64,000 bases of DNA from Bacteroidota bacterium (GTDB taxonomy: Bacteria; Bacteroidota; Bacteroidia; Flavobacteriales_D; Sanyastnellaceae), in the NCBI GenBank assembly GCA_027619225.1, contig JAQCFW010000002.1, positions 1-64,000 of the forward strand, written 5' to 3'. How positions within the stretch are numbered: position 1 is the stretch's first letter; every line of letters begins with the position of its first letter. Positions 40,436 through 59,160 of this stretch are shown piece after piece. The notes under the pieces were generated by a model. That model worked only from the letters and a program-made list of their open reading frames with translations, made no database searches and was not told where the DNA came from. Both the position numbers and the translations under genes were made by a program.

Positions 40436-42913
40436 TTAATTACAAAGAGTTCCAAAGGCTGAAAGAATGAGTAACAAATCCCCAACTGCAACGATTCCAT
40501 CACCATCTAAATCCTCTGGACAAACACCACCTATAGAGCCATCTGGCAAGCAAAAGCTCGACTCTTGATCCCAATAAGTACCCGGTCCACAATAGCCTGG
40601 ATCTCCACATACATTACATAAAGAAAAACAATGTATAGGCACTTCAAATATCGCTGGATCTACAATAAAAAATCTATTGTAACCACCTAACCCATTATTA
40701 GCACCACAAGTTGCAGGGACTGTTTCTTCTGCTCCCCAAGCATCTCCATTAATGAATTTATAATCTACCTGAGTACCTACAACAGCAATCACATCAACTG
40801 AATACGTCCCATCAGATTCTAAGGTAAGGGGTGTAGATGAAGGAACCCAGTTCTGAAATGACCCAGCAATGTGAGGGCCTGAAGAAGTTGGAGCCAGTTC
40901 GCCCAGATCAAGATGGAGAGTAGTAATGTATTGGCAAGTGCCGTTGTCGAACTCTGCTACAGGATCATAGTTCACAGCATTGGAATCCATACACCCTGAA
41001 CTAGTGAGGATGGGGAAAAATCCGTTGGTATCAGGTGTGGGGAGTGGGGTATCTATGTAAAGGTGCCATTCACCAGGTTCAATATATAATGAAGTGGCTA
41101 CGTCATTAACAGAATAACTCATTCCGGAAAAATAATCATACCAAGTCCCTGTGTATGGAAAACCAGGTATCATCTCGAGGGGAACTACATCGAAATTACC
41201 AATGAGTACAGCATTTTGATCTGGAGAATAAAGATGTATGATTTTTCCTGTTCCACTGCAATCAAGGTTGTAATCAGATGTCGTAAATACCGATTGCTCT
41301 TGCTTAAGGTGAGCTAAAGCGGAGATGGTTTTTGCAAGGGAAAGCCTCTCAGGAACCTCTAAATCCGACCATCGATCAGGTTTTTCAGACAGCTTACAAT
41401 CTTCTGAAGATGTTCCATCACCACAATCAAAAATACTTACGTCGTATCCCAATTCTGCCCATTGCCAAATCATTTTAGGTCCTGGAATAGCAAGCAAAAA
41501 GGCATTGGTCATTTTAAGCCTGTCCATAGCAGTACTGAACTCCTTCGTATCGTAGGTGCCTGAAGCATTGCCGTAAAGTTGTAAATCATATGCGAGGCGC
41601 TCCTCGTCATGGGACTCCATATAGGTGATGAGGTTGGGATAATTGTACCCGCGATTCTGCCATGAACCATAGTTAAAATCACCACTATAGCCCATCGAAC
41701 TTTGAGAGAAACCATAGGTCATCTTACCCCAAATCATGAATCCTCCATCAGCCAATGATTTCTCCTCATCATTGTTTCCAAGATGTTCTAAGATCATATA
41801 CGTACCTGGGTGATTCGACTGAATATCGTTGTAATAATCAAATAAAATATCAATTCGGCTCTGATCGTATTGATTCCATAAATTTACATTACTCCCACTA
41901 TCTACTTGGGTTAGACCTTTACTCAAATCCACTCGATATCCATCTATGTGGTATTCTGAAAGCCAAAAATCAAAGACCCTCTTCCAATACTCCCTCACCC
42001 ATCCATCTTCATGATTGAAATCGTAACCAGGGCTGAATGGATGCATTGCGTAGCTATTAAACCAAGGATTCTCTTCTGAAACAATTCCGTTTTCATCTTG
42101 ATACAATCTCACAAGAGGATCTGTCCCGAAGCTGTGGTTGGGAACTACATCTAAAATGACTGCTATTCCTTTTGCGTGACATCTATTTACAAACTCCTTA
42201 AGCTTCGACTTCGGTCCGTAATATTTATCCGGGGCAAATCTAAAATTGGGGTTATAACCCCAACTGGAATTTCCTTCGAACTCACTTACAGGCATAAGTT
42301 CAATAGCATTGAAACCCATATACTCAAGATAATCAAGCCTGTTTATTAAATCTTGATACACAGAACCCGAATCAAAATCTCTAACGAGACATTCATAAAT
42401 AACCAACTTATCCTGAGATGGCTTCTGAAAGTCATAATCAGTCCAAAGAAAATATGGATTGTCAGTTCTAAATGTGCTAATGGGGACAGAGGCAATACCT
42501 GTAGGATACTGAGGCATTCCAGGGAAATTTCCTTGTGGAATGTATCCATCGTTCCATGGATCTAAAATGAGTTCAGAATATGGATCACCTATCTCGAGCA
42601 CGCCTTCAACTAAGAAGAAATATCTGTAATATGTACCCGGATTCAGGTCATTGATTTGTAACCAATGGCTGTTACCATCCGTTGAAATCTTCATCAAACT
42701 AGTTGCACTTTCCGAAAAGGAATTAAAATCACCTTTAAGATGAACATATTGCTTACTCGGTGATCGAAGCTGAATGATAACAGAAGTACCGGACAAGATG
42801 TTTACTCCGTCAAGAGTTCCTGATGGGGGATCAGAAACGATGGGCGTTTGGGCTGTGGCAGTTAACTCCAAACACAAAATCGCAAAAGCTATAACCAGAG
42901 AAAGTGTCCTCAT
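40436..42913 (-). CDS. Secreted GH13 alpha-amylase-like hydrolase with dockerin-like end
   Basis: An 825-residue secreted protein; ATG 42913 gives a proper signal peptide (MRTLSLVIAFAILCLELTAT then AQ), while a start at 42931 adds six residues. A CBM48-like N-terminal domain precedes a GH13 (beta/alpha)8 domain. Its catalytic set is visible: the nucleophile Asp in DGYRVDLSKG, the acid Glu in MILEHLGNN and the transition-state Asp in MESHDEERL; DVVPNHSFG is region I. After a C-terminal beta domain come a GCMDSNAVNYDP Cys-repeat, a starch-binding-like beta domain and a final dockerin-like module (CPEDLDGDGIVAVGDLLLI). There is no T9SS domain. It is divergent from the GH2 gene. Confidence 0.9.
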   Translation of the reverse strand: MRTLSLVIAFAILCLELTATAQTPIVSDPPSGTLDGVNILSGTSVIIQLRSPSKQYVHLKGDFNSFSESATSLMKISTDGNSHWLQINDLNPGTYYRYFFLVEGVLEIGDPYSELILDPWNDGYIPQGNFPGMPQYPTGIASVPISTFRTDNPYFLWTDYDFQKPSQDKLVIYECLVRDFDSGSVYQDLINRLDYLEYMGFNAIELMPVSEFEGNSSWGYNPNFRFAPDKYYGPKSKLKEFVNRCHAKGIAVILDVVPNHSFGTDPLVRLYQDENGIVSEENPWFNSYAMHPFSPGYDFNHEDGWVREYWKRVFDFWLSEYHIDGYRVDLSKGLTQVDSGSNVNLWNQYDQSRIDILFDYYNDIQSNHPGTYMILEHLGNNDEEKSLADGGFMIWGKMTYGFSQSSMGYSGDFNYGSWQNRGYNYPNLITYMESHDEERLAYDLQLYGNASGTYDTKEFSTAMDRLKMTNAFLLAIPGPKMIWQWAELGYDVSIFDCGDGTSSEDCKLSEKPDRWSDLEVPERLSLAKTISALAHLKQEQSVFTTSDYNLDCSGTGKIIHLYSPDQNAVLIGNFDVVPLEMIPGFPYTGTWYDYFSGMSYSVNDVATSLYIEPGEWHLYIDTPLPTPDTNGFFPILTSSGCMDSNAVNYDPVAEFDNGTCQYITTLHLDLGELAPTSSGPHIAGSFQNWVPSSTPLTLESDGTYSVDVIAVVGTQVDYKFINGDAWGAEETVPATCGANNGLGGYNRFFIVDPAIFEVPIHCFSLCNVCGDPGYCGPGTYWDQESSFCLPDGSIGGVCPEDLDGDGIVAVGDLLLILSAFGTLCN

Positions 42914-42917
42914 TACA

Positions 42918-42925
42918 CTAAGATA
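42918..42925 (-). promoter_or_regulatory. Candidate -7 element of the amylase gene
   Basis: Minus-strand TATCTTAG fits TAnnTTnG and ends 4 bases before the chosen amylase start, which would make the mRNA nearly leaderless. Confidence 0.35.
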
Positions 42926-42932
42926 CGGCAAG

Positions 42933-45578
42933 ATGGACGAGAGTTATGTAATTTGCAGTGTGAAAAAAATACTTCCTGCTCTACTTATTTTGTGTGCGTC
43001 ACTTTTGCCAATTTACTCAAACAATTTTTCAGCCCAAGAAAACCTTACGATATATGGAACTTGGCAATGCCTCGACTCCACTGAAATTTCTGTCCCGGGA
43101 CGGATGCCGGGGAGTTTGTACAACTCCCTGCTAAGGGGGGCAGTGATTCCAGATCCTTTTGTCGGAACAAATGAAGATTCTGTTCAGTGGGTAAGTGAAA
43201 TGGACTGGGTGTTCACTTCGACCCCCTTTGATGCAGCGGAAAACTTTGAGGATTACGACTTACTATTCCTTAAAGATGTACAGCTTTATTGCAGCATCAC
43301 CTTAAATGGAGTTGTACTTGGTGAAACCGACAACGCTTTTAGAAACTGGTCCTACAGTTTGAAATCGACCTTGAAATCGACCGACAATATTCTTACATTT
43401 AGTTTTAAATCGCCTACTCACAATGTAAATAAAATGGGTGGTGTTGAACAGCATAGAACTCCACAATTTGCATTTGGATGGGATTGGGCATTGAAGCTTA
43501 TTGATTTTTCTATTGGCAGAATTGATCTTGAGAAGAGCCGGACTGAAGAGAATATCTACATTGACAATCTCACACTTGTTACTGATACAATTTACGGGTC
43601 CACTGCGAAAGGGTTTGTTATGTGGGACATCTCAGGAGATTTAAGCGAGACTGTGGTTTTAAGGTGGGCTTTGACGAATGAGAGTGGTGCCGTTGTAGCC
43701 TCAGCAAATTTTAGTAACACATCGGGGATTATAAAGTCACCATTCACCATTGAAAATACTGATTTATGGTGGACCCACGATTTGGGAAAACCATCTTTGC
43801 ACACGCTCGAGGTAGTCGCCGTTGGGAAAAACGGTCTGCTTGCTCTAGAGAAAAAAACAGTGGGGATTAGAACCCTCAAACTAGATACTTCTGAAGACGA
43901 AAAAGGCGCTAAATTCCAGTGGGTTCTCAACAACGTGCCCTTTTTTGCTGGAGGAGCAAATGTTGTCCCAGCTGACATACTTAAATTCAGAATCAACTCC
44001 TTAGAAGAAAGAGAAATCGTGAAAAATGCTGTCGCTGCGAACATGAATACCCTGAGGGTATGGGGTGGCGGGAATTATGCCTCGGACAATTTCATGGAGG
44101 CCTGCGACGAGATGGGCGTTCTGGTTTGGCAAGATTTTATGTTTGCATGCGCTATGTATCCTGGAAATGAGGGTTTTATAGAATCTATACAGCATGAAGC
44201 CACAGACCAAACCCTTCGCCTTCGACACCACCCCTCCCTCGCCATGTGGTGTGGCAACAACGAAGTAAGTGAAGGATGGGAAAGGTGGGGGTGGCAAGAT
44301 GGGCTTTCCGAAGAAGAAATCACCGAAAAAGAAATCGCCTACTCCGAGATTTTCGAAAACATCCTACCTTCTACTGTCAGCTTATACGACGACGCACCTT
44401 ACTGGCCTTCCTCACCCCTACTTGGACGAGGCGACCCAGATTTTAAGAACCGTGGTGATGCCCACGACTGGGGGATTTGGCATGACGGGTATGCGTTCGA
44501 TTCGCTTTGGGCTCGAGTACCCAGATTTATGAGTGAATTTGGTTTTCAAAGTTTTCCTGAACGCTCAACTTGGGAAACCGTAGTGCTGTCTGACACCTTA
44601 GACCGACACTCATCTGAGGTCATTGCGCACGAGAAACACAGTCGAGGGTTTGCAATCATTGATAAATACTTGGAGAATTCATATGGAGACTTCTCTGAGG
44701 GGGTTTCTTACGAAGAGTGGGCGTATGTCACTCAAGTTCTTCAAGCCAAAGGGATCTCAGATGGGGTGCGAGCAGCACGACTCAATCAGGATTTTTGCTC
44801 TGGGTCTTTGGTTTGGCAATTAAATGATTGCTGGCCAGTAGCATCATGGTCTTCTATAGACGCTCACGGAAAGTGGAAACTCCTTCATTATGAATTGAAG
44901 AAGGCCTTCGCGCCCACGCTCCTTTATGGAAAATGGAATCATCTGGGGAACAAGCCCCGTTTAGAGATCGGGTTAGTGGCGAATCCAAGCAAACATGGTG
45001 AAATCCAAATCCCTGGAACTGTCCGCGTATCAGTCGTGAACTTTGACGGCACGGAAGCATTCATGTCTGAACATCCATTAAATCTCACACCTGGCAGAGC
45101 ACAATGGATTACCCTCGATAACGTACCCTACTACGATAACATGAAAAACATCGACCCCACCAGCTCATTTGTGCAACTCTCATGGATAGACGCAACGTGT
45201 GAAAACGCTCAAACTTGCCAAATCAAAGCGAGCGCAACTGTCTTTGCCGCCCTCCCTAAAGAGCTTAAACTCGAAGACGTTCCTGTACATGTAAAACCAT
45301 TTACCGGAGGAAATAGCGAAAGCGAGTTCGTGTTGTATGAAGTAAGTTCAAGCGCTTTCTGCAAAGATGTACAGCTTACCGCTACAACTTTGGGAAATTT
45401 CGAGATGAACGGATTTGACTTACTTCCCGGAGAAAAGCGCATCGTGAAATTTACACCTCACTCAATCATAAATTGGGCTCCTGAACTTGCTGTAGGAGGT
45501 ACTTCCAAATTAAAACCGAAAGCTTTATTTGTTCGAGCCATCAGTTTAAACAACGTTGTTAAAACTACTTCTCCCTAA
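42933..45578 (+). CDS. Secreted GH2 beta-mannosidase-like enzyme
   Basis: An exported glycoside hydrolase family 2 protein of about 880 residues. Start choice is open: ATG 42933 gives MDESYVICSVKK before the hydrophobic core, while GTG 42960 gives a cleaner signal peptide (MKKILPALLILCASLLPIYS). Sugar-binding, Ig-like and TIM-barrel domains follow in GH2 order. RVWGGGNYASDNFMEACDEMG, the acid/base Glu in WCGNNEVSEGW and the nucleophile Glu in RFMSEFGFQSFP match beta-mannosidases, which release mannose from N-glycan cores or mannans. No T9SS or dockerin-like domain is seen. Its 3' end overlaps the convergent GH20 gene by 14 bases. Confidence 0.9.
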   Translation: MDESYVICSVKKILPALLILCASLLPIYSNNFSAQENLTIYGTWQCLDSTEISVPGRMPGSLYNSLLRGAVIPDPFVGTNEDSVQWVSEMDWVFTSTPFDAAENFEDYDLLFLKDVQLYCSITLNGVVLGETDNAFRNWSYSLKSTLKSTDNILTFSFKSPTHNVNKMGGVEQHRTPQFAFGWDWALKLIDFSIGRIDLEKSRTEENIYIDNLTLVTDTIYGSTAKGFVMWDISGDLSETVVLRWALTNESGAVVASANFSNTSGIIKSPFTIENTDLWWTHDLGKPSLHTLEVVAVGKNGLLALEKKTVGIRTLKLDTSEDEKGAKFQWVLNNVPFFAGGANVVPADILKFRINSLEEREIVKNAVAANMNTLRVWGGGNYASDNFMEACDEMGVLVWQDFMFACAMYPGNEGFIESIQHEATDQTLRLRHHPSLAMWCGNNEVSEGWERWGWQDGLSEEEITEKEIAYSEIFENILPSTVSLYDDAPYWPSSPLLGRGDPDFKNRGDAHDWGIWHDGYAFDSLWARVPRFMSEFGFQSFPERSTWETVVLSDTLDRHSSEVIAHEKHSRGFAIIDKYLENSYGDFSEGVSYEEWAYVTQVLQAKGISDGVRAARLNQDFCSGSLVWQLNDCWPVASWSSIDAHGKWKLLHYELKKAFAPTLLYGKWNHLGNKPRLEIGLVANPSKHGEIQIPGTVRVSVVNFDGTEAFMSEHPLNLTPGRAQWITLDNVPYYDNMKNIDPTSSFVQLSWIDATCENAQTCQIKASATVFAALPKELKLEDVPVHVKPFTGGNSESEFVLYEVSSSAFCKDVQLTATTLGNFEMNGFDLLPGEKRIVKFTPHSIINWAPELAVGGTSKLKPKALFVRAISLNNVVKTTSP

Positions 45579-47838
45579 CTACAATTTCGTCACAAAAAAG
45601 CCATGTCGGCTCAGTTGCTGCGGCATGCCAGTTAGGGCAAAGTCCAGAATTGACTGCCCTCATCTTGACATATCTGGCGTGAACACCCATTAGCTTTCCG
45701 GAATTTACTGTCACGATATCTTGAGCATCGTTCTTTAAAGTTGCGTCTTTGAAATCGTTTTGAGAGATGACTTCATAATGATCTCCATCAATTGACGCGA
45801 AGAACTCTACGGATATGGGCGGGAAAATCCACGCGTCTTGATATCGATAAAAATTGGAGAATATTGAATCAATTTCTATTATTTCCTCGAGATCTACGAT
45901 TGCAAGAACATCCTCTCCTTGTACTGCTTGCCAAACACCGTCGTGAAATCCAAGAGAGCCTATCCTACCATCAACAAGTGCGAAATCTCCACCCCCAGTG
46001 TAATATGGACTCGGTGTAAATCCAAGTTCTATGGGGTGGAAGACCCCAGCGTGTCCGTCAACAAAAAACTCCTCACGTCTAGGCAGTTGTCGTCCTCGGT
46101 AATTGATAGAAACGCTTATTGTTCCATGGCTTTCGACCTCGATAGATTGACCTAACAAGACACTATCTCCATTAAAATGGGTAGTGCCCTTGATATATTC
46201 CGCTGATGGAGTGAGTGTCGCATAAAGTTTTTCAGATTGAACTGCCAAGGATAGCGTTACAGGGACGGATTCCATTCCATAGTCAACTTTAAGGATAGAG
46301 AGTCTTTCTAAATGCGGCTCAAGGCGCTTGACAAAGTCAGAGTATGCGCCTGAAGCACCTGTAAATTCTGGTCCAGACCAAAGAACTTCGGACAGTCCTA
46401 TCGCCCTTGGGAATACCATGGATTCCACAAGGTGCTGAGGGGTGTGCTCTGTCCACATATTGCACTCGCCACCCAACACTCGCCCATCACCTACTGTTTC
46501 AGGTCGAGGATTAAATGAGTAAACTTTCTTGAGGTCGGTGGAACTTAGAGGATAGTCGAGGTAGCAATGGCTCGTGGGTGAGACGATCACATCAGACCCG
46601 AGTTCTATGGCTTGTGAAGCACCTGACATACCGCGCCAGCTTTGGACTACCGCCCCGTCGGGAAGACCCCCTTCTAAAATCTCATCCCATCCAATAATCG
46701 TCTTGCCTTTCGACTCTAGAAATAATCCTATTTCCTCAATAAACCATGTTTGCAATTCGTGCTCATCATTCAGCCCTTGTTCAGCAATCCTGTTCTGACA
46801 TTTGTCACAACTGTGCCACCTAACCTTAGGCGCTTCATCCCCTCCTATATGAATACGGCTTGAAGGAAACAGCTCACACACCTCAGTTAAAACCTGCTTT
46901 AAAAATAAAATGGTACTGTCGTTTCCCGCACAATAAATATCCTTAAATACTCCCCAACGATTAGCCACTTCAAGCTGTTCTCCTGTGCAGCCTAAATAAG
47001 GGTAAGCAGCTAATGCGGCTTGACTGTGACCGGGCAATTCTATTTCAGGAATTACTTCAACATGTCTCGCTGATGCATACGTAATTATTTCACGAATCTC
47101 TTCTTTAGAATAGAAACCACCGTGCTTCGTTCCATCTAACTCAGTTCGCCAGGCTCCAACTTCAGTCAGATTGGGGTAAGCGTCTATTTCTATACGCCAA
47201 CCCTGATCCTCCGTAAGATGCCAATGCAACACATTCATCTTGTGAAGAGCAAGATTGTCTATCATTTTTTTAATAAACTCAACCTCCATAAAGTGTCTAC
47301 AACAATCCAACAGCAATCCCCTATGTTCAAATTCAGGAGAATCTGAAACAAGTACTTCAGGAAGAAAAAAACCGCTCACACACCCCCCATACTCACACGA
47401 ATTAGGAATCATCTGCCGCAGCGTAGTAAACCCTCGGAATAGCCCCACCTCACTGTTCGCATTGATATGAATAACATCATTTTTAATGATCAAATCATAG
47501 GATTCATCTGTATTATCTCCTGTAATCTCGAAGACCAAATTGGCATTTGTCGCAAAATCCTTCCTTACCTCAACACCTACACCCATGAACCAAGCTTCTA
47601 CCACTTCTGATGTGGGACCCAAGTGTTCTATTCCTTGAATCCTAATATCTTCTCCAGAAAAAAACATCTTGCCATCCTCCACCTTCCCAATCAAAGACAC
47701 AGATTTAGGAAATGGAATCAAAGCTTCTATACCTCCTGTTGGTATACTGTGAGGCGATTTTTGGGAACACGATAGAAAAACAAACATGGAACATAACGTC
47801 ACGAAAAAAATACCACAATTCTTAAAATTCATCTTCAT
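45565..47838 (-). CDS. GH20 beta-N-acetylhexosaminidase lipoprotein
   Basis: A 757-residue lipoprotein with lipobox FLSC (Cys24). A GH20b beta domain (about 35-165) precedes the GH20 TIM barrel (about 170-500). The catalytic pair Asp334-Glu335 lies in HIGGDEAPKVRWHSC, and the start HRGLLLDCCRHFMEVEFIK is typical. A discoidin (F5/8C)-like domain closes the protein (about 620-757). It removes terminal GlcNAc/GalNAc from glycans or chitin fragments at the cell surface or periplasm. It overlaps cutC by 17 bases (11 if the second Met is used). Confidence 0.92.
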   Translation of the reverse strand: MKMNFKNCGIFFVTLCSMFVFLSCSQKSPHSIPTGGIEALIPFPKSVSLIGKVEDGKMFFSGEDIRIQGIEHLGPTSEVVEAWFMGVGVEVRKDFATNANLVFEITGDNTDESYDLIIKNDVIHINANSEVGLFRGFTTLRQMIPNSCEYGGCVSGFFLPEVLVSDSPEFEHRGLLLDCCRHFMEVEFIKKMIDNLALHKMNVLHWHLTEDQGWRIEIDAYPNLTEVGAWRTELDGTKHGGFYSKEEIREIITYASARHVEVIPEIELPGHSQAALAAYPYLGCTGEQLEVANRWGVFKDIYCAGNDSTILFLKQVLTEVCELFPSSRIHIGGDEAPKVRWHSCDKCQNRIAEQGLNDEHELQTWFIEEIGLFLESKGKTIIGWDEILEGGLPDGAVVQSWRGMSGASQAIELGSDVIVSPTSHCYLDYPLSSTDLKKVYSFNPRPETVGDGRVLGGECNMWTEHTPQHLVESMVFPRAIGLSEVLWSGPEFTGASGAYSDFVKRLEPHLERLSILKVDYGMESVPVTLSLAVQSEKLYATLTPSAEYIKGTTHFNGDSVLLGQSIEVESHGTISVSINYRGRQLPRREEFFVDGHAGVFHPIELGFTPSPYYTGGGDFALVDGRIGSLGFHDGVWQAVQGEDVLAIVDLEEIIEIDSIFSNFYRYQDAWIFPPISVEFFASIDGDHYEVISQNDFKDATLKNDAQDIVTVNSGKLMGVHARYVKMRAVNSGLCPNWHAAATEPTWLFCDEIVVREK

Positions 47839-48541
47839 TCCATTTTAGTACCTCATCACTTAGCTGAACAGCTTTATCAAAATCTACCGGATATGTGCTC
47901 AAGTCGAACAGCCCCTCATCTACATGATTCAATATATTAGACAGCGTTTTTAATCTACAAGAAGCATGAACTGCTTCTACGCCCACTTGTCCTAATGTTG
48001 TAACATCTTCTAATCTTACACCACCTCCTGCTATAACCTCCATTCCCAGTTGGGAAAGATCCCTAAGCAATCCAAGTCCCAGGCCAGCCGCTGGAGCCCC
48101 ACCGCTCGATAAGACAGCATTAATTCCGAAATCTTGCAGAATTTTAGCAGACTCTAAAGGGTTTTTTGACACATCTAGAGCCCTATGAAACACAATCAGG
48201 TCACTGGATATCTTTTTGCATAGCATCTCAAGCAAGTGCTCATCCACATTTCCAGATTCATCTAATCCTCCTACCACAATCATTTCTGCCCCTGCGTCAA
48301 GGCAATCTAATGCCTCAGCTATCATTAATTTCTTTTCAGAAGCATTGTAGATAAAATCTCCTGCCCTAGGTCTTATCAAAGCCCTAACAGGTATGCCTAT
48401 GCTTGCGCTAGCTCTTACAGAAGCTGAGGTAGGAGTCAGTCCTCCGCACTCCCAATGTCCACAAAGTTCAACTCTATCCGCACCAGCTTCTTGAGCTATA
48501 GCAACATCAACAGGTGTACTTACACATATCTCAAAATTCAT
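47822..48541 (-). CDS. cutC: CutC family TIM-barrel protein
   Basis: A 239-residue protein of the CutC family. It opens FEICVSTPVDVAIAQEAGAD and has RVELCGHWECGGLTPT (about 23-38), RPRAGDFIYN (about 57-66), FHRALDVSKNP and LSSGGAPAA (about 144). The name comes from an E. coli copper-tolerance locus, but the copper role has been questioned and the barrel looks enzymatic. Here it is translationally coupled to the GH20 gene, favouring a carbohydrate role (inference). Confidence 0.9.
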   Translation of the reverse strand: MNFEICVSTPVDVAIAQEAGADRVELCGHWECGGLTPTSASVRASASIGIPVRALIRPRAGDFIYNASEKKLMIAEALDCLDAGAEMIVVGGLDESGNVDEHLLEMLCKKISSDLIVFHRALDVSKNPLESAKILQDFGINAVLSSGGAPAAGLGLGLLRDLSQLGMEVIAGGGVRLEDVTTLGQVGVEAVHASCRLKTLSNILNHVDEGLFDLSTYPVDFDKAVQLSDEVLKWNEDEF

Positions 48542-48559
48542 CTTTTAGCTTGGACAAGG

Positions 48560-49756
48560 TTAATTGGGACAAGGTTCACCGAACACGGCCAGGACTGATA
48601 GCACATCCGAAACCGTTACCGCTCCATCTCCATCAACATCTGCAAAGCAGGATAACTCACAACCGAATTGACCTAAAATTTCTAACACATCCGCTACAGT
48701 AATTACTCCATCAGCAACGATATCAGCTGGGCAAGTATTTACAATTGGAGGAGGGGAATCCACATCATACCATCCACAAATAGGAGGGTACAAAGGGCAT
48801 ACTTGTCTACTCGTAAAACCTACTGTAACAGCTCTAGTGGTATCGTAATATTGAGTGGAAGATGCATGTGGAGTATGACCGGCTCCGGGGAAGGCATGAA
48901 AACAATTGTCTATGCCTAACAAATCAGTGGTATTGTGAATAATCTCGCTACCATCTACGATCGTAACATTCATACCTGACAATTGAACGTAACCTGTTCC
49001 AAAGGGTACCGTTCCGTCATTCGTTCCATGCGTACTTACCACGGGAATGTTCCCTGCTGAAATCCATGCATCATCTCCTATTGCACCAGAAATACTAAAT
49101 ATTGAAAGCAGTTCTGAGGAATATCCTGGAGATCCGGAATCCCCTTCTATCCCACCTGATAACCCGTTCGCATTAAAATTTACCGTAGAAGGTATTTCTG
49201 ACAAATCATCAACATAGGCAGCATGAAGTGCGATAAAACCTCCTGCAGAGGACCCACCCAAGACAATTCTCTCAGGATCTATCCCCCAAATATTGCCTTC
49301 TATCGCATGAGATTTACGCAAATATCTTACAGCGGCTTTTGCATCTTGAACACCTCTAATAGCAGCTTCTTGAAGTGAGGATTCCAGATTAAAGAAATTT
49401 CCTATTCCCAATCTATAGCTTATTGAGGCAGCTACATACCCCATCCTTGCCAAGTCCTCACAAAGAGGTACAACGTCTAACCCATTGTTAGAACCTCCTA
49501 GAAAAAAACCACCATGTGCTACAACAACAACTGGCCTGTTATTTACCACATCACCTACAGGCTGATAAATATCCATGACCAATGAAATGTTGCTTCCCGT
49601 TGCTGAGATATTGTTGCCATAAGGGATGTCATAATCTACTGAAATATCATCAAAGACTCGATATCTATATCTAGCACCATCACAACCTATTCCCGTTTGG
49701 GCAGGAAGGTTAATTGCAAACAACGTGGTTAAAACAACGTAGAAAAATATTCTCAT
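48560..49756 (-). CDS. Secreted alpha/beta-hydrolase (esterase) with double dockerin-like end
   Basis: A 398-residue exported protein with signal peptide MRIFFYVVLTTLFAINLPAQ. The alpha/beta-hydrolase domain (about 55-320) has an oxyanion HGGFFLGG (81-88), the nucleophile elbow GGSSAGG (Ser170) and a late His in FHAFPGAGH; it resembles HSL/carboxylesterase-type lipases. The last 55 residues hold two Cys-flanked dockerin-like units. The first (CPADIVADGVITVADVLEIL) has lost its Ca ligands and the second (DVDGDGAVTVSDVLSVL) keeps them. No T9SS domain is present. The last codons are duplicated after the stop (see findings). Gaps to neighbours are 9 and 18 bases. Confidence 0.88.
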   Translation of the reverse strand: MRIFFYVVLTTLFAINLPAQTGIGCDGARYRYRVFDDISVDYDIPYGNNISATGSNISLVMDIYQPVGDVVNNRPVVVVAHGGFFLGGSNNGLDVVPLCEDLARMGYVAASISYRLGIGNFFNLESSLQEAAIRGVQDAKAAVRYLRKSHAIEGNIWGIDPERIVLGGSSAGGFIALHAAYVDDLSEIPSTVNFNANGLSGGIEGDSGSPGYSSELLSIFSISGAIGDDAWISAGNIPVVSTHGTNDGTVPFGTGYVQLSGMNVTIVDGSEIIHNTTDLLGIDNCFHAFPGAGHTPHASSTQYYDTTRAVTVGFTSRQVCPLYPPICGWYDVDSPPPIVNTCPADIVADGVITVADVLEILGQFGCELSCFADVDGDGAVTVSDVLSVLAVFGEPCPN

Positions 49757-49765
49757 TTGGCTCGT

Positions 49766-50488: not shown

Positions 50489-50523
50489 TGTATGCAAAAG
50501 GTACACACAATTTTATGATGAAA

Positions 50524-52725
50524 CTACTGTTGAACGACAACTTGCAGAGAACTGTTTAATTTTTTAGAACTCAGGACATAAACGCCTAAATCTAAACTAC
50601 TTACATCTAAACAAGTGCGGGCTGAATTGATGTTCAAGACTTCAATTAATCGTCCGTTAATATCAGAAAGCGTAAACTCCGTACCGATATACTCGTTTGA
50701 GACTTCGATATTAATCACATCAGTAGTCGGATTTGGAAATACCGTCATTACAAATTGACCATTCTCATCTTCTATTGAGTAAATGACTCCCATCGAGATT
50801 AACAGGCCTCTAAATTCTTGATAGTAGAGGTTTGACACTCTTGCATCGTGAACGATAACAGTATTCTCGTCGTTCGTGTTTTCAGCAGTAGATGACCAGT
50901 TGTGAGACCCTGTTACGACTGTAGGATCAGAAAGAGGTTCGCTGTAGTCAATCACGGCATATTTATGGTGAAGCTGACTAGCTATATCTTGATGAGAATG
51001 TACATCTATTCCCGCCGCAGTAAGGTTATAAAATTCAGCACCAGTACCACCTATTTCTTCAATCGCACCCTGAGGGCTTACAAAAAAATTTGATCCATCA
51101 ATAATCGCATCTGCTAAGTCGTCACGGGTAAACGACAAGAGCGCAAAAGCCATTCCGTAATCCATCGTTTCAATGGTTTCACGGATCGCCGAAGTCGTTC
51201 CATCTGTCGGAGAGAAATAAACCTCAACAGGTGAACCTCCTATGATGTATTTCAATGGCGTGTTGACCGTTTTCGCGGGCCCAAACTTTGAGTTTGCTTC
51301 ATCTGGAACCATGGTATCACTGCCCCACATCTCATTGAACTCAAGGCGATATCCGCGAGCAATACTTTGGTCTTGAAAAACAATCACATTGTTCTTGTCA
51401 GTATTGAGATTCGCCGTAGTCATATTTGTTGACCCTGTCAATACGAAAGCCGTTTCAGGGTAGTCAGCATCCCCAATAAAGAACTTGTTGTGCATTCCTG
51501 AACCCTCACCGTCTGTGCGGTAATGAACAGGAATTGAGCTGTCAAAATTCTGGATCCCTAGGTTTGCATTTTCTCCTTCGGCGATATATCTAATCTGAAC
51601 TCCGTTTGCCGCAGCTGTATTTACAGCATTTTCAATCGCGACATTGTTCGTGTTGTATACTGCAATGTCGAGCGTATGTTGGGCGGAAGTAATCCACGCT
51701 GCAATCGTATCGTTTGTGCTCGTGCCAAGTGACATTGCTTCTTCGTCGATCGCGACAGTCGTATCCACAGAGCCGGTGAAGTACACGTGAATGTTTCCTG
51801 AAGATTCTGAAATGGTCGCGTAAACCCTGACAGGAGAAGTTACTGTTTCTCCATCGGTATTTGTAGATTTCACTCTTGCGTAGTAAAGTGTCCCAGGACT
51901 GAGTCCACCCAAAGAAATCAAGTGGTCTGTAGATAGAAATAAATCTGAAGTAGTCGTTCCTAAATCTGGAGTTAGACCCCACTCAACTTCACTGTCACCG
52001 ACGACATCTGTTGTCCATGTTAGATCAAATGACGATGACGAAATGTTGATTTGTTCTACTTCAGAAGTAAGACAAACCCCAGAAGTGGAAAGCATATCAG
52101 AAGCTCCACGAGGTAAAAGTTGGTAGCCTCCGTATCCATTGAAAGAAAACTGGCTTACAATCCCCATGAGGTTCATTTCGCATCCGTTAAGTGTCGTTCC
52201 CACAAGAGAATTAGAAGATCTTACGTAGATGATACCTTCTTCTCCAGAGGAAGTGAAGGTGTAGGTGGCGTTAGATTCTATTGTTTGCCCTCCCGCATCG
52301 AAAGTGGTGCCCTCTATTACAACCAATTGCCCCTCCAAAGATTCATTAAGCTGATTAGGTGTTACTACTAAAGCATCAGGAATAGGATTGCCTGAGCTCA
52401 ATACAACAATCTGGGCGAGATTAGGTCCGATTTCGAGCAGTCCATTGTACTCCGTGATTTCTCCCGTCACAGTCACCTCATCACCTGGATTAGGTTCTGC
52501 AGCCCATGCAGTCCAATCGTTTCCTGGATAGATAGCTATTCCAGCAGAATTGTCCTGTATATATCTTACAGATCCCAAATCTGATCCATTTGTGACAATA
52601 CCTGTTACGGTTACGGTCTCACCTATCTGATAATTTGTACGTGCGTCTAAAATATCAGACTGCGCATATAAAATTGTGGAGGAAAGGATCGCAATAAATG
52701 CGAGGGTACAGCTAAATAATTTCAT
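50524..52725 (-). CDS. Secreted OB-fold/FN3/phospholipase D-like protein with T9SS type A domain
   Basis: A 733-residue exported protein with signal peptide ending at YAQ (about 22). Two OB-fold-like units (about 30-215; VTVTGIVTNGSDLGSVRYIQ and DEVTVTGEITEYNGLLEIG) resemble DUF5689/nuclease-associated OB domains. A fibronectin III domain (about 222-305) is next, then a PLD domain with two HxK motifs (His412-Lys414 in MHNKFFIGD and His586-Lys588 in HHKYAVID, each followed by GSTNM or GSHNWS). The end is a T9SS type A domain (VFPNPTTDVINIE). PLD enzymes of this layout are nucleases or phosphodiesterases. It is 24 bases downstream of the TonB receptor. Confidence 0.9.
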   Translation of the reverse strand: MKLFSCTLAFIAILSSTILYAQSDILDARTNYQIGETVTVTGIVTNGSDLGSVRYIQDNSAGIAIYPGNDWTAWAAEPNPGDEVTVTGEITEYNGLLEIGPNLAQIVVLSSGNPIPDALVVTPNQLNESLEGQLVVIEGTTFDAGGQTIESNATYTFTSSGEEGIIYVRSSNSLVGTTLNGCEMNLMGIVSQFSFNGYGGYQLLPRGASDMLSTSGVCLTSEVEQINISSSSFDLTWTTDVVGDSEVEWGLTPDLGTTTSDLFLSTDHLISLGGLSPGTLYYARVKSTNTDGETVTSPVRVYATISESSGNIHVYFTGSVDTTVAIDEEAMSLGTSTNDTIAAWITSAQHTLDIAVYNTNNVAIENAVNTAAANGVQIRYIAEGENANLGIQNFDSSIPVHYRTDGEGSGMHNKFFIGDADYPETAFVLTGSTNMTTANLNTDKNNVIVFQDQSIARGYRLEFNEMWGSDTMVPDEANSKFGPAKTVNTPLKYIIGGSPVEVYFSPTDGTTSAIRETIETMDYGMAFALLSFTRDDLADAIIDGSNFFVSPQGAIEEIGGTGAEFYNLTAAGIDVHSHQDIASQLHHKYAVIDYSEPLSDPTVVTGSHNWSSTAENTNDENTVIVHDARVSNLYYQEFRGLLISMGVIYSIEDENGQFVMTVFPNPTTDVINIEVSNEYIGTEFTLSDINGRLIEVLNINSARTCLDVSSLDLGVYVLSSKKLNSSLQVVVQQ

Positions 52726-52749
52726 TGAAAAAAATGTTATTGAGAGTAA

Positions 52750-55653
52750 TTAAAATCTGACGCGAATAGAGAAATTTGAACTGAAACCATATCCCATATA
52801 TACGCTTGCTGAAGCTGCGTCGAAATTGTTTTCAGTAAATGCATAAGTACGGTTAGGATCAGTAAAGTTCCACTCGCCATACGGATCGTTATTCTGTGCG
52901 TTGACAAGATAAATCGTGTTTAAAACGTTAAAAGCAGAAAAGCGAAAATCTATCTGCGAGTCCTTCAGATCCATGGTGTATCCCATATGAAGGTCCAGAA
53001 GACCATAAGCTGGGAGTTCCCAAGACTGACGACCTTCGTTGTCTCCATTCAAAGAGAATGGATCAAAATTAGCGTAAAATCTATCGAAATAAGTGTAACG
53101 AGGTTTAACGTAGAAGCCGTTTTTGCGGTAACGGACAGCAAAACCTATTTGGGTTTGGGGTGCATCACCTACAGAAACTCCTGCTGCATTGTATTTCACA
53201 ATCTCTGGATTTCCTTCCCAATCCAAATAAGGTAGGTTCGTATTTTCATCCAACAAAATCAAACTGTCCTCAGAGCTGGTCCATCGCCAATCACCATAGG
53301 AACCATATCCCTCAATTGTAATGTGGCGATTCAATTGGTAACCGAAATCAAGCTCAATCCCCTTGTGAAGAGCACTCATTGAATTAATGTTCGCCCTTAC
53401 AATCTCTCCGTCCGCAGTTTCAAACCTAAGCATACTATTTAAAGGCCTGTTCTGCCAATTCGTATAGTATCCATTCAGATTCAACGTCCATGGGGATTTA
53501 CTCCACTTGACACCAAATTCAACCGAAGATATCTTCTCGTTTTGAGTGTTTTGAATAAACTTGTTGTCGAAATCAATCACGCTCGAGAAAGTAGGTGTCC
53601 TGTTGAGATAACCGAGGTTCATAAATGCATTGGTCCACTCATTAATGTTTACATTTCCTCCACCCTTAACAGTATAACCTGAAATCCACTTCCAACCAGA
53701 TTCGTTGTACTCCATGTCACCTGTCTCCTCATTCTCAACAAGTGGTTTGAAGTAATCCACACGGTTGTACCCTTGGTTGACAGCACTCACATTCACAAAG
53801 TAATTGTACCACGGACCTTTGAATTCCATGAGCGCAAACACCCCTCCCCATTTCACAAAAGCGTCATTGTGATACCCTATTGTATCTCCCACAGTATGCA
53901 TGGGCTGGTTGTCATTTGAGTCATCTTGATCAATGAAATAATCTCCCCCAAGCAGATCATGAACAGTACTGTAGTGCTCCCCTTGATAGGTTCTAAAGTC
54001 TGCTCCACCTGAGAATGTAAGCCTATCGCTACTCTCATACCTGAAAGTAGAAAGCCCGCCAAACCATTTGTGGTTGTTGTAGAGTTTCCTCAGAATTCTA
54101 GAGCTCTTAAGTAATGTTTCTGAGTAAGTCGGGTCGATCGGCGGGCCGAATAATCCCCCCACAGTATTGGTATTCCAAAACTTCTGAAAGTCAACCTGAC
54201 CATCCGCCGAATAATCTCCCGACCCAAGCGAATTCTCTAACCTTGTTCCTCCGCCATGCCCATAAGAAGCATAGGCAGTGGTCGTGATGTAAAGCTTCTC
54301 TGTCGTTCTCCAGCTGTGGCGCAAAGACATCAATGGTTTGTGGTATTTGTTCTGGCGCTCATACAGGTTCGCTCCATTAAGCTCGCCCCAATGAACATTG
54401 TAGTTAAGCCCCATATCCCTCAGGCCAGTGGTATCAATATAGTTCGTAGATGTCATTTCATTTTCAAACTCAGAAGCTCCACCTTCTACGTCATATCCGT
54501 ACTGAGAATTGAGCTCAGAATAGGCTGCTTGCTCTTCTGCAAGAGAAAGAGATCCATCGTTAAAAATCGCATCATAAGCTTGACTGTACTCTGTCATCTG
54601 AGTATAGTCATCATCCGTCCCTGTGAAAAGACTTCTTGCATACTCTTTGTTGTGAGTTGGAATTCGTTGCTGATACCCACGCGCTGAGTTCTGCGAAGGC
54701 GCCCCGGTAACACTTAAAGACAAGATATGCGATCCGAGTTCCTTTTGAGCTTTTCCATAGTAGAACCAAGAGTCTTCATACGATTGCGCCACATATCCTC
54801 CGCTGTTCTTATAACTTCCAGAAAAGGTAAATCCCCATCCACCATCTAAACGACCTGTGGTGTGACCCAGCGTAGTACGAGTCATACCAAAACTACCAAG
54901 TTCTTGCTTCACACTCGTTTTCTTCTTGTTTTCAATCCCTACAGTAATAATATTTACAGTTCCACCAATCGCTGGAAGAGCAAGTTTCGAAGCACCAAGC
55001 CCCCTTTGGACTTGCATCGTTTGAGTGACCAGATCGAGGCCAAACCAGTTGTTCCAAAAAACGCCTCCATTCTCCATGTCATTGACAGGGATCCCATCTA
55101 TAAGAACACTTACGTTTCTCTGTTTAAATCCTCTGATACTGATACTTGGCCCATTGTCGTCTGACCCTGCCTGAGTAGCATAAACTCCAGGCGTTGAGTT
55201 GAGTAGCATGGGCAAAGGTTGAGAACCCAATTCTTCTTGAATTTGAAGTGGTTTTATATTTGAAAACGCAACAGGGGTTTCTCTTTCTATCGCGATATCT
55301 GCAACTACCCTTGCTTCTTGAAGGAGTACGGTCTCCATCTTAAAAACAACTTCAATGGTCGAATTTGCAACGACATCTACCTCTTTTGACATCGGCTCAT
55401 AACCGACGTAAGAAACACGAAGGATGTATCTACCTGGCGTAAGTTCAATCGCATACAACCCATCGAAATCCGTGAGAACACCTACCGTGGATTCACCTGC
55501 ACCATAAATGACGGCTGCCTGAATTAAAGCCTCCCCAGTGATCGCATCCGAAATAGAACCACGTACAAGACCTGTTTGGGCAGATGCGGTGAGCATCGAG
55601 CCAAAGAAAAGCCCCAAGAAAGCGGACAGGACAAACCAATGAATACGAATCAT
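52750..55653 (-). CDS. TonB-dependent receptor with carboxypeptidase-like regulatory domain
   Basis: A 967-residue outer-membrane receptor. The signal peptide ends at SAQ (about 26); a carboxypeptidase-regulatory-like beta domain (about 28-118) precedes the plug (about 125-235: VSVLIDGIPVND, GGTVNIIT) and a 22-strand barrel ending in an aromatic-rich terminal strand (FSIRVRF). It takes up a substrate too large or rare for porins using TonB energy. The substrate is unknown; it is neither SusC length nor paired with SusD. It is flanked by a lamin-tail secreted protein (36 bases upstream) and the PLD protein. Confidence 0.93.
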   Translation of the reverse strand: MIRIHWFVLSAFLGLFFGSMLTASAQTGLVRGSISDAITGEALIQAAVIYGAGESTVGVLTDFDGLYAIELTPGRYILRVSYVGYEPMSKEVDVVANSTIEVVFKMETVLLQEARVVADIAIERETPVAFSNIKPLQIQEELGSQPLPMLLNSTPGVYATQAGSDDNGPSISIRGFKQRNVSVLIDGIPVNDMENGGVFWNNWFGLDLVTQTMQVQRGLGASKLALPAIGGTVNIITVGIENKKKTSVKQELGSFGMTRTTLGHTTGRLDGGWGFTFSGSYKNSGGYVAQSYEDSWFYYGKAQKELGSHILSLSVTGAPSQNSARGYQQRIPTHNKEYARSLFTGTDDDYTQMTEYSQAYDAIFNDGSLSLAEEQAAYSELNSQYGYDVEGGASEFENEMTSTNYIDTTGLRDMGLNYNVHWGELNGANLYERQNKYHKPLMSLRHSWRTTEKLYITTTAYASYGHGGGTRLENSLGSGDYSADGQVDFQKFWNTNTVGGLFGPPIDPTYSETLLKSSRILRKLYNNHKWFGGLSTFRYESSDRLTFSGGADFRTYQGEHYSTVHDLLGGDYFIDQDDSNDNQPMHTVGDTIGYHNDAFVKWGGVFALMEFKGPWYNYFVNVSAVNQGYNRVDYFKPLVENEETGDMEYNESGWKWISGYTVKGGGNVNINEWTNAFMNLGYLNRTPTFSSVIDFDNKFIQNTQNEKISSVEFGVKWSKSPWTLNLNGYYTNWQNRPLNSMLRFETADGEIVRANINSMSALHKGIELDFGYQLNRHITIEGYGSYGDWRWTSSEDSLILLDENTNLPYLDWEGNPEIVKYNAAGVSVGDAPQTQIGFAVRYRKNGFYVKPRYTYFDRFYANFDPFSLNGDNEGRQSWELPAYGLLDLHMGYTMDLKDSQIDFRFSAFNVLNTIYLVNAQNNDPYGEWNFTDPNRTYAFTENNFDAASASVYMGYGFSSNFSIRVRF

Positions 55654-55689
55654 GACAAAAGAAGTGCTAAGTAGTTCGCGTAAAACGAA

Positions 55690-56631
55690 TTAACGTACAA
55701 CGATGCGGTGTGCGAAAATCGAACCACTCAAGTACTGAACGTTCACAAAATAAACACCTGCCTTCCAATCTGAAGTAGAGATAGACCAAGTGCGAATATC
55801 TGAAGTCGGTGCAATCACCTCCACGAGACGACCCTCAGGACTGTACACTTGAATTTGCTTGACAGACTGTCCACTTTCAATGTTGAACTGACCGTTTACA
55901 GCAGGATTGGGGAAAATCTCTAAAGATGGAGTCTCCACTAGATTGTTTGTTCCAGTTGAACCACACGCACAGCTGTGAGATCCCAAGCCATCCCAAGTAT
56001 TTACTGGAAGCGTATCCCATTCGAGAAAAGTATCAAAAACCACAGGTGGAACATTGATTCCATGAACCACGTCGAACTTGCGTCGTAATGTGTGGTTAGA
56101 AGTAAGCCAAGCAGCACCATCACCGACATCTGTAAAACCGTTCTCAGCATCATTTGTCCAAGCCACTCCAGGGTTCTCTCCTGGCTTTCCGAAAATATCT
56201 ACTACAGTTGTACCGTTCTTGACGAGAACAAGTGCATCATTTCCATTCATGTATGTTGGTGCAGGATAAGGATTGTCCAATTGATCTGCCAAGCCTTGCA
56301 TCACAGGATCACACATTGGAGACATTGCGCCACCGCCAAGGTCTACGTCTTCCGTCTGACCATTTACCAAAACCCAGGTAGTCAGAGAAGGCAAAGTACC
56401 GAAAAGTTGTGTCGCATCCGTAACTGTTCCTTCTCCATTGCTCCAACGTTGTAATTCATACGCGCTCAAATCAATCGGCTCTGTAGTGGGGTTGAAAAAT
56501 TCAAGACCTTTGTTATTTCCTGTACCTTCAAGGTATTCAGAGATGATAAGGTCATCACAAATGAGCTGAGCTGAAGTACTTGCAGAAAAAGACAATCCTG
56601 CGACGAGGAAAAATATTGTAGAAATACGCAT
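55690..56631 (-). CDS. Secreted lamin-tail-domain protein with T9SS type A domain
   Basis: A 313-residue exported protein. The signal peptide ends at SAQ (about 22). A lamin tail domain (LTD; about 24-185) begins LICDDLIISEYLEGTGNNKG and includes LEFFNPTTEPIDLSAYELQR. The last 75 residues are a T9SS type A domain (LEIFPNPAVNGQFNIE). LTDs in bacteria are often fused or linked to secreted nucleases and may bind DNA or other ligands. It is first in the LTD-TonB receptor-PLD group. Confidence 0.9.
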   Translation of the reverse strand: MRISTIFFLVAGLSFSASTSAQLICDDLIISEYLEGTGNNKGLEFFNPTTEPIDLSAYELQRWSNGEGTVTDATQLFGTLPSLTTWVLVNGQTEDVDLGGGAMSPMCDPVMQGLADQLDNPYPAPTYMNGNDALVLVKNGTTVVDIFGKPGENPGVAWTNDAENGFTDVGDGAAWLTSNHTLRRKFDVVHGINVPPVVFDTFLEWDTLPVNTWDGLGSHSCACGSTGTNNLVETPSLEIFPNPAVNGQFNIESGQSVKQIQVYSPEGRLVEVIAPTSDIRTWSISTSDWKAGVYFVNVQYLSGSIFAHRIVVR

Positions 56632-56682
56632 AAGTTTATTTTTTGATTTATGAAGCCAAACTTACTGCGTATCTTGCATGCA

Positions 56683-59160
56683 ATGAAAAAAATTAGATAC
56701 TTTTCTCGGTTATTATTAATAACTTCTTGTTTCTTCTTCATTGCGGGAATCTCATTATTCATTGTATCTCATCAATCTAACGAGCTAGAAACAGATGCTT
56801 TCCACAAATTCGAACCGCAAAGAGCTGCCGCTTTTAAGTGGTCATACCCCGATGAAGATTGGGATGTTTCTGAAGCTGATGCAGCGTTAAAAAATGTGCG
56901 ACATCATTTTGAAGCACAAGAGGCGAATGATTTTTCGAGAGAAATTGGTGGATCATGGAGGATGGAAGGTCCTGGAAACATCGGTGGGAGATTAAACGCA
57001 ATTGCACAAGATCCTTTCGACTCGAACCACATCCTTGCGGGAAGTGCTGCAGGAGGTCTATTCGGAACAAATGATGGCGGGGCAAACTGGTCGTCACTTA
57101 CAGAGGATTTCGCCTGGATGGCAATGGGAACGATCGCATTTCACCCCACCCAAGAAGGAACAGTCTACATAGGCTCCGGCGACCCACAAATTTCATCCCA
57201 CCCAAGATTGGGAGATGGGGTGCACCGATCAGTTGACGGAGGGGCCAACTGGACTCATTTGGGCCTCGACAGCGCTCGAATCGTGAGTAAAATACTCATT
57301 CTTGAAGACACCCCAGAAGTAATTATGGCCGCAACTATGGGAAACCCTGCCGTAAAAGGCCCAGACAGAGGTCTATACCGCAGCTCTAACTCCGGAACCA
57401 CGTGGGATCATGTTCTACTGCCCTCTGATTCAGCTGGCGTTAACGACCTCGCGTATGACTCTTCAACTGGAATTATGATCGCTGCAGGGTGGAATAGACT
57501 TCGAACCTCTACACGATCACTTGTTTTAGGACCCGAATCAAAATTATACAGATCTGCTGACGCAGGCATCACATGGGGAGCTGTAAATAGCCCATGGGGG
57601 AATGAGAATAGGTGCCGAATAGGACTTTCTGAAAATAACGGTGATTTCTACGCTTTAGTTGTAGGGCTAAATATGCAATTAGACAATATCTATAAAAGCT
57701 CAGATGGAGGGGTTAGCTGGCTTCCAATCATAAGTGACACATCCCCACTTGCTAACGCATTGGGAGGGTTTGGTTGGTATTTCTCTAAAATCAGAGTTAA
57801 CCCATGGAACTCTAATGACATTACTGTTTTAGGAGTTGACGCTTGGAATTCTCTTGACGGGGGTGATACTTGGTCTCAACTAACTCCTATATGGTGGGAG
57901 TATACTGTTCATGCAGATAAACATGATTTGCAATGGGTCGGACCAAATTCAGCTATTTTAGCTACTGATGGCGGAGCATACAGAACCGATGATCACGGAG
58001 AGACTTGGACCGACATAGAGAACATCAACAACTCTCAATTCTACAGGGTTGAATGGAACCCGCATAATCCAGGTGTATATACAGGAGGGGCTCAGGATAA
58101 CGGAACTACAAGTGGCTCCTATTTAGATGTGGACAGTTGGTCGCGAGATCGAGGTGGAGATGGCTTTACCCCTGTTTTCCATCCTACGAATCCCTATTAC
58201 AGGATAGCGACAGTTCAGTATGGTAATTTTGCTTTTTCCGAGGAACCATCAACGGCACCTAACCCAATCTGGACAGATATGGAAGACCTAGAATACGATG
58301 ATAGAAAAGGCTGGGACACGCCGATAATTTTACACCCTGCAAACCCTGATCACATTTGGACAGGAACTCAAAGAATGTGGAAAATGACGGGCTCCCCCTT
58401 GGGAAATTGGAGCCCGATGAGCGAAGACCTGACTCACAACATAAGTCCTGGACTTGGATACAGAGTCATTTCAGCAATTTCAGGATCTCCCATTGACGAA
58501 AACATCTTAGCCGCTGGAACTTCAGACGGGAGAGTTCATTACACGACCGATGGAGGACTCTCGTGGAATTTGATGACTGACGGGTTGCCGGAACGCTACG
58601 TTACCGACCTTTATTTCGACCCATTTTATCCTGACTCTATTTTCTGTACAGTGAGTGGTTACCGTGATTACGCATATACACCTCATATTCTAAAAGCAGC
58701 GCTTGGAGGTGCTTGGGAAAGTATTTCTGGGGATCTCCCTCAACATCCCATGAATGCTGTAGTAGCGTTGAGCGAATTGGTTTGGGCTACAGCTACAGAC
58801 GCGGGAGTATATGCAACCGTAAATGCTGGAGTCAACTGGGAGAGATTGGGCAACATGCCCTGGATACCTGTTTATGATTTAGTCGTAGACACCGTTGAGA
58901 GAAGATTGGTGGCTGGGACTTTTTCTAGGAGCATACAAAGCTTCCCACTAGATTCAATTTTAGTGGGGACACCTCCTGACCCTGTTTTTTATTGTTTAGA
59001 AGATGTGGTACCAAATGGCATCATTGACACGAGCGATATTTTACTCATGCTTAGCCAGTACGGATGCCTTTCAGATTGTTCAACCGATATGAATGGCGAT
59101 GGTTCGGTCACTATATCAGACCTGTTGGTGGTGCTTGCAGTGTTCGGTCAACCCTGTTAA
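56683..59160 (+). CDS. Secreted Asp-box (sortilin/VPS10-like) beta-propeller protein with dockerin-like end
   Basis: An 825-residue exported protein; ATG 56683 gives a basic n-region and signal-like segment (KKIRYFSRLLLITSCFFFIA), while a start at 56650 adds 11 residues. At least nine Asp-box motifs of type S/TxDxGxxW are seen (SVDGGANW, SADAGITW, SSDGGVSW, SLDGGDTW, TDDHGETW, TTDGGLSW), making one or two beta-propellers as in sortilin-like or sialidase-fold proteins. Catalytic sialidase residues (RIP) are not evident. The last 60 residues are two dockerin-like units: DVVPNGIIDTSDILLML (Ca ligands lost) and DMNGDGSVTISDLLVVL (ligands kept). No T9SS domain. Confidence 0.87.
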   Translation: MKKIRYFSRLLLITSCFFFIAGISLFIVSHQSNELETDAFHKFEPQRAAAFKWSYPDEDWDVSEADAALKNVRHHFEAQEANDFSREIGGSWRMEGPGNIGGRLNAIAQDPFDSNHILAGSAAGGLFGTNDGGANWSSLTEDFAWMAMGTIAFHPTQEGTVYIGSGDPQISSHPRLGDGVHRSVDGGANWTHLGLDSARIVSKILILEDTPEVIMAATMGNPAVKGPDRGLYRSSNSGTTWDHVLLPSDSAGVNDLAYDSSTGIMIAAGWNRLRTSTRSLVLGPESKLYRSADAGITWGAVNSPWGNENRCRIGLSENNGDFYALVVGLNMQLDNIYKSSDGGVSWLPIISDTSPLANALGGFGWYFSKIRVNPWNSNDITVLGVDAWNSLDGGDTWSQLTPIWWEYTVHADKHDLQWVGPNSAILATDGGAYRTDDHGETWTDIENINNSQFYRVEWNPHNPGVYTGGAQDNGTTSGSYLDVDSWSRDRGGDGFTPVFHPTNPYYRIATVQYGNFAFSEEPSTAPNPIWTDMEDLEYDDRKGWDTPIILHPANPDHIWTGTQRMWKMTGSPLGNWSPMSEDLTHNISPGLGYRVISAISGSPIDENILAAGTSDGRVHYTTDGGLSWNLMTDGLPERYVTDLYFDPFYPDSIFCTVSGYRDYAYTPHILKAALGGAWESISGDLPQHPMNAVVALSELVWATATDAGVYATVNAGVNWERLGNMPWIPVYDLVVDTVERRLVAGTFSRSIQSFPLDSILVGTPPDPVFYCLEDVVPNGIIDTSDILLMLSQYGCLSDCSTDMNGDGSVTISDLLVVLAVFGQPC

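Follow-up and report, generated by a model that had tools for sequence, protein, structure and literature searches.

The window analyzed here, a stretch of 64,000 nucleotides corresponding to bases 1-64000 of contig C4 in a genome of 2.03 Mb and 49 contigs, encodes secreted proteins that end in a Cys-flanked module resembling a dockerin, together with others that carry a T9SS domain. The question raised by this locus is what the module is and whether it serves its carriers as a C-terminal tag in place of the T9SS domain.

Copies of the module in the window

A preliminary description of this DNA had placed the module at the ends of an amylase, an esterase and an Asp-box protein and at the start of a partial gene at 1-177, and had counted six copies. 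We searched the whole genome with a profile built from sequences that included the esterase and Asp-box modules, and read the DNA itself in the regions surrounding the relevant genes; the amylase and edge-gene copies were not in the profile, and independent models agree with the profile calls. All of these placements held, and the six copies proved to be six halves: one in the amylase, two each in the esterase and the Asp-box protein, and one in the edge gene. According to its open reading frame and domain models, the amylase is a secreted alpha-amylase family protein with CBM48 (40436..42931, minus strand); its single half of 26-30 residues (40442..40522, minus strand, E 4.7e-8) ends CPEDLDGDGIVAVGDLLLILSAFGTLC-N-stop. 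The same evidence identifies the second carrier as a secreted alpha/beta-hydrolase esterase of the BD-FAE type (48560..49756, minus strand), with a double module at 48569..48739 (minus strand, E 5.8e-25), and the third as a secreted sortilin/Asp-box propeller protein (56683..59160, plus strand), whose double module (58990..59157, plus strand, E 1.8e-24) stops exactly at the last Cys. In both, the two halves together span about 55 residues. The preliminary description gave no strands. In the edge gene, which is cut by the contig end, a single half without the closing Cys (31..120, minus strand, E 6.4e-5) lies immediately past the signal peptide, at the N-terminus.

The same description had contrasted these proteins with four T9SS-tagged ones, and this contrast also stood. 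Domain models find no T9SS type A or type B match at the C-termini of the amylase, esterase and Asp-box protein, and domain models and the module profile together show four T9SS-tagged proteins without the module. These are an S8 peptidase (1596..3929, minus strand), a PLD-like protein (50524..52725, minus strand) and a lamin-tail-domain protein (55690..56631, minus strand), all with type A (TIGR04183), and a PKD protein (4077..5864, plus strand) with the type B CHU_C domain (PF13585, 39.4 bits; TIGR04131 scores 31, just below its cut-off of 35).

Sequence and fold of the module

In its majority form the module reads C-x2-D-L-N-x-D-G-x-I-T-V-x-D-x-L-x2-L-S-E-F-G-C-x3-C-x2-D-x2-G-D-G-x-V-T-V-x-D-x-L-x2-L-S-x-F-G-x2-C, followed by the stop. 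It is a divergent branch of the GC-type dockerin described by the NCBIfam model NF041540, which matches 27 places in the genome at E<=1. Three of these lie above the model's cut-off of 29 bits; the esterase of the window sits at the boundary, with 33 bits in one search and exactly 29 in another, and the other 24 matches, including the Asp-box module, fall below it. Pfam Dockerin_1 (PF00404, gathering cut-off 22.9) matches 7 of 46 carriers, one of them with 29.9 bits, while the window copies score 14-15 bits.

The resemblance to type I dockerin halves and GC-type dockerins that had been proposed for the module is supported at the level of structure as well. A profile of the window copies and public copies finds solved dockerins, the best being 2y3n_B (E 1.9e-9). 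The predicted structure of the esterase double module (pLDDT 89.5) consists of two helices, each preceded by a loop, and its best Foldseek match is again 2y3n_B (TM 0.80, rmsd 1.1 Å); the other confident PDB matches are dockerins too. Taken together, the family models, the match to solved structures and the predicted fold identify the module as a genuine dockerin.

The aspartates of the calcium loops hardly vary among 143 distinct double modules; the first Cys is found in 136 (in the rest it is mostly shifted by one) and the last in 138. The second and third Cys co-vary: both are present in 135, each is present singly in 1, and neither is present in 6; these six copies have the first Cys, and three of them also the last. 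From this pattern we infer that the module probably forms C1-C4 and C2-C3 disulfides, the evidence for the outer pair being the weaker of the two. The loops would bind calcium, although in the esterase and Asp-box copies the first loop is degenerate, one of its ligand positions being occupied by a hydrophobic residue.

Carriers across the genome

The preliminary description had suggested extending the search to the whole genome, and the module was found far beyond the window. With the Asp-box module alone as query, 35 places were recovered (best non-self E 1.2e-18); with the profile, 50 places at E<=1, of which 43 at E<=0.001. These places map to 46 longer open reading frames, to the edge gene and to two short fragments; the secreted proteins that carry a GC-type dockerin number about 45 and are mostly unrelated. 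A signal-like N-terminal hydrophobic segment, called by a simple hydrophobicity rule, is present in 39 of the 46 frames, and several of the others are cut at contig ends. Of the 41 frames whose module is C-terminal, 40 have only 0-3 residues between the last Cys and the stop.

The carriers include M12B peptidases, lamin-tail proteins, FG-GAP/ASPIC proteins, PETase-like and other esterases, endonuclease I, arylsulfotransferase, CotH, PQQ dehydrogenase, and plastocyanin-like and trypsin-like proteins. A PETase-like hydrolase at L056:4895-6016 (contig C35; PF12740, 139.5 bits) has a C-terminal module, and many carriers, for example L048:4166-6499, have C-x-D-x2-ACNYD-x2-AT-x-DDGSC repeats just upstream of it. 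Reading of the carrier C-termini revealed no transmembrane stretch or basic tail, and a sortase-type tag (LPXTG, PEP-CTERM, GlyGly-CTERM, MYXO-CTERM) was discarded. The module is N-terminal in five of the 46 frames, as it is in the edge gene. Three of these five are FISUMP-domain proteins (L057, L037 and L041, on contigs C36, C17 and C20), in which a degenerate single module directly follows the signal peptide, as in the edge gene.

Distribution among relatives

Of 114 genomes belonging to the same family, 109 contain the module. Genera g3 and g6 have 0-2 copies, and the number rises to about 50 in other genera. Presence throughout the phylum was considered and rejected: among 393 genomes drawn across it only two match at E<=1e-10, a threshold that would miss weaker members, and both belong to the same family. 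Similar modules also occur in Flavobacteriales-labelled and Phycisphaerae MAGs and in one Desulfobacteraceae MAG. Module density and T9SS density, the latter counted from unscored first-look candidates, are inversely related by genome (rho -0.56); by genus the relation is weak and not significant (rho -0.36, p 0.11).

Relation to T9SS domains

TIGR04183 matches 67 places in the genome, 61 of them over cut-off, and none lies in any of the 46 module reading frames. This count, which the preliminary description had proposed, refers to type A; type B (TIGR04131/PF13585) was covered in the window. Part of the exclusion follows automatically from the C-terminal position of both tags, and it concerns the Cys-flanked kind of module, as relatives have ordinary Cys-free dockerin-like repeats, mostly under the Pfam cut-off, inside T9SS-tagged proteins.

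A single protein family, whose name refers to the variety of its anchors, allows a closer comparison. Choice-of-anchor B proteins (TIGR04312) were found in 109 of the 114 family genomes; 111 were read, and 105 tails were classed by the module profile and sequence motif. The module ends 59 of these, T9SS type A 30 and a third C-terminal domain 16, and none has two. A tree built from the part that these proteins share requires only 3 tag changes, and one of them, a replacement of T9SS by the module in genus g14, depends on starred branches. Frequent tag swapping among orthologues, which we sought in this tree, was therefore rejected; replacement of one tag by the other is possible but rare, and the small number of changes fits different destinations better than free exchange. 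The third domain, of about 40 residues (..LVKIVDQLGREV..GQIVFYIYDDGSAEKVFV..), stands in place of T9SS type A and the module and has no NCBIfam model. It is found, for example, in L128:481-2658, L115:481-2745 and L163:111-2318, in 13 other choice-of-anchor B proteins and, in the genome itself, at C10:1747-2835, and it could be an unnamed T9SS-type domain.

The idea of an alternative C-terminal tag is thus upheld in that the module replaces T9SS type A within choice-of-anchor B, and has to be qualified for the five proteins and the edge gene with N-terminal modules. It had also been argued from the mutual exclusion that the module is a sorting, anchoring or assembly tag. The exclusion itself extends to the genome, with the reservation on its partly automatic nature made above, and docking or assembly fits better than sorting or export. 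Were the module an export signal, the type IX translocon would read it as an alternative sorting domain. This would agree with its standing in for the T9SS domain in choice-of-anchor B and with the occurrence of T9SS type A proteins in all 114 family genomes, with or without the module, and it is the only version that would account for crossing of the outer membrane. T9SS C-terminal domains are beta-sandwiches, however, while the predicted fold of the module is all-helical, of the EF-hand type; related modules are found in MAGs of Phycisphaerae and Desulfobacteraceae, groups that are not known for T9SS; and genera g3 and g6 have T9SS yet almost no modules. We consider recognition by the translocon very unlikely, and a T9SS subtype is supported neither by the predicted fold nor by the occurrence in Phycisphaerae.

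Gene runs and lineage-specific residues

Genes with the module tend to be neighbors in operon-like runs. Ten pairs of module genes are adjacent, one of them across a gap of 1.2 kb, whereas 46 genes scattered over 1800, an assumed number, would be expected to form about 1.2 such pairs. The run at C27:83542-90162 (L047) contains four module genes on one strand, separated by 47, 41 and -25 bases, with mutually unrelated domains (arylsulfotransferase, endonuclease I, choice-of-anchor B and YHYH). A trio at C28:86165-91583 (L048) encodes trypsin-like, MopE-like and plastocyanin-like proteins, each ending in the module, and its order is kept in public contigs, for example L063 and L065-L068.

The modules of one genome also have residues in common. 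In the relative G045, 15 modules carried by different genes agree in residues that set them apart from the modules of this genome and of genus g19, with F at column 49 in 14 and L at column 35 in 13 of the 15, and module identity is higher within groups than between groups (p ~5e-4). Such residues are expected from a common lineage-specific receptor, and copying of the tag between genes could also produce them.

These patterns bear on the possibility that the module is a cap that binds no partner, a terminal fold stabilized by calcium and disulfides that shields secreted proteins from proteolysis. The conserved features, four Cys and the calcium loops, would indeed stabilize a terminus, and most genomes of the family have no cohesin. 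A cap does not predict gene runs made up entirely of module carriers or lineage-specific residues common to unrelated proteins; nor does it predict exclusivity with another anchoring tag or the cohesin gene next to a module gene described below, and we regard it as unlikely.

Cohesins and the case for docking

The preliminary description had seen no cohesin partner. This remains so for the genome as a whole, in which neither PF00963 at E<=1 nor a cohesin profile of the lineage finds a match, and it does not hold for the relative G043. Over the 114 family genomes PF00963 gives five matches above cut-off, and by the lineage profile G043 alone is clearly matched. Its protein L254:8526-10529, of 668 residues, has four tandem cohesins and a C-terminal GC-type dockerin. 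The gene adjoins one for an M43 peptidase of 1254 residues with a C-terminal dockerin and an open frame of 2304 residues for a repeat protein, all three on one strand; the C-terminus of the repeat protein reads like T9SS type A, and Pfam gives no match to a T9SS type A family there. A cohesin-dockerin set that uses the module thus exists in the family, and with so few genomes matched a cohesin cannot be its general partner. Another candidate was rejected on similar grounds: G104, of the same genus, encodes a T9SS-tagged thioredoxin-like protein (L223:76-2892) in which an ordinary dockerin-like stretch follows a cohesin-like one, and only three further genomes have relatives of this protein, one being weak.

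We judge the chances about even that the module, stabilized by calcium and disulfides, is a tag that docks its carriers to a shared receptor and substitutes for T9SS anchoring. Two loop-helix halves, or sometimes one, would bind calcium and probably be stapled by the disulfides proposed above, forming a tag at the extreme C-terminus of Sec-exported proteins. Tagged proteins of one lineage would bind a common receptor, which may bring co-expressed hydrolases, nucleases, esterases and copper proteins together, either on the surface of the cell or within a complex, and the module would replace the T9SS anchoring domain rather than add to it.

The established role of the dockerin fold is docking, and the predicted fold of the module matches dockerins solved in complex with cohesins, such as 2y3n_B. 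Docking is further supported by the conservation of the calcium-loop residues and Cys together with the terminal position of nearly all copies, by the one-tag rule in choice-of-anchor B, by the same-strand runs of unrelated carriers with their lineage-specific residues, and by the dockerin-tagged M43 peptidase adjoining the four-cohesin gene of G043. It also has precedents in the planctosome model (PMC6461901) and the Stygibacter scaffoldin (PMC8542988). The case is weakened because no cohesin or other receptor was found in this genome or in most module-rich relatives, because tag copying offers another source for the lineage-specific residues, because a Sec signal peptide by itself would take the proteins no farther than the periplasm, because of the degenerate first calcium loop in two window copies, and because some N-terminal copies misfit a C-terminal tag.

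The same Sec-type signal segments and the lack of a receptor would suit a module that merely marks periplasmic or freely released proteins; the different destination would then explain the absent T9SS domain, and the dockerin fold would be a relic. The stability of the tag in each choice-of-anchor B paralogue fits distinct destinations of this sort. Since strong conservation of the calcium loops and Cys argues against a relic, and many carriers are polymer-attacking types usually used extracellularly, we find this the least probable of the readings considered. The docking tag may also be conceived more specifically, as part of a lineage-wide display system parallel to T9SS. In each genome the disulfide-stapled dockerins of dozens of secreted enzymes would bind a receptor on the outer surface that is peculiar to the lineage and is not a cohesin, and one bacterium would thus have two mutually exclusive C-terminal codes, each for a different extracellular destination. 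This form is possible but doubtful.

Comparison with known systems

The domain has a name (NF041540), and dockerin assemblies outside cellulosomes are known from Planctomycetes (PMC6461901) and Cloacimonadota (PMC8542988). Our literature search found no paper describing T9SS-bearing Bacteroidota in which a whole lineage uses the module as an exclusive C-terminal tag and none on 'GC-type dockerin', and the papers on dockerins and Flavobacteriales do not, by title and abstract, treat it. According to one paper, Bacteroidetes genomes lack cohesins and dockerins (PMC5831590); the present family, in whose genomes the dockerin matches number up to about 50, stands against this remark. If the docking code is true, it would be a second route for organizing extracellular enzymes, among them PETase-like and peptidase families, alongside T9SS, and the lineage-specific residues and the four-cohesin relative would offer a route to the receptor.

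The planctosome model of freshwater Planctomycetes places dockerins on M12B reprolysin-like peptidases, lamin-tail proteins and HYR domains, and similar protein families carry the module here; the planctosome has cohesins (PMC6461901), whereas in this genome no cohesin can be detected. Ca. Stygibacter (Cloacimonadota) has dockerin-tagged secreted enzymes, as here, and one large cohesin scaffoldin attached to the surface through a conserved CTD (PMC8542988), whereas in the present family the multi-cohesin protein is confined to G043 and ends in a dockerin. Type I and II cellulosome dockerins (PF00404; 2y3n_B) have the same fold, duplicated calcium loops and placement on secreted enzymes, and the module differs from them in its flanking and central Cys, its single-half forms and the cohesin-free state of most genomes. 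The T9SS type A CTD (TIGR04183/PF18962) occupies the same position on Sec-exported proteins, including paralogues of choice-of-anchor B; it is unrelated to the module in sequence and fold, and here it never shares a protein with the Cys-flanked form. NF041540 itself is like the module in length, layout, Cys at both ends and a mostly C-terminal place, and unlike it in that most copies here score under the cut-off. The Bacteroidota module has four Cys with a central FGC-x3-C, while several Phycisphaerae copies are without the inner or the last Cys.
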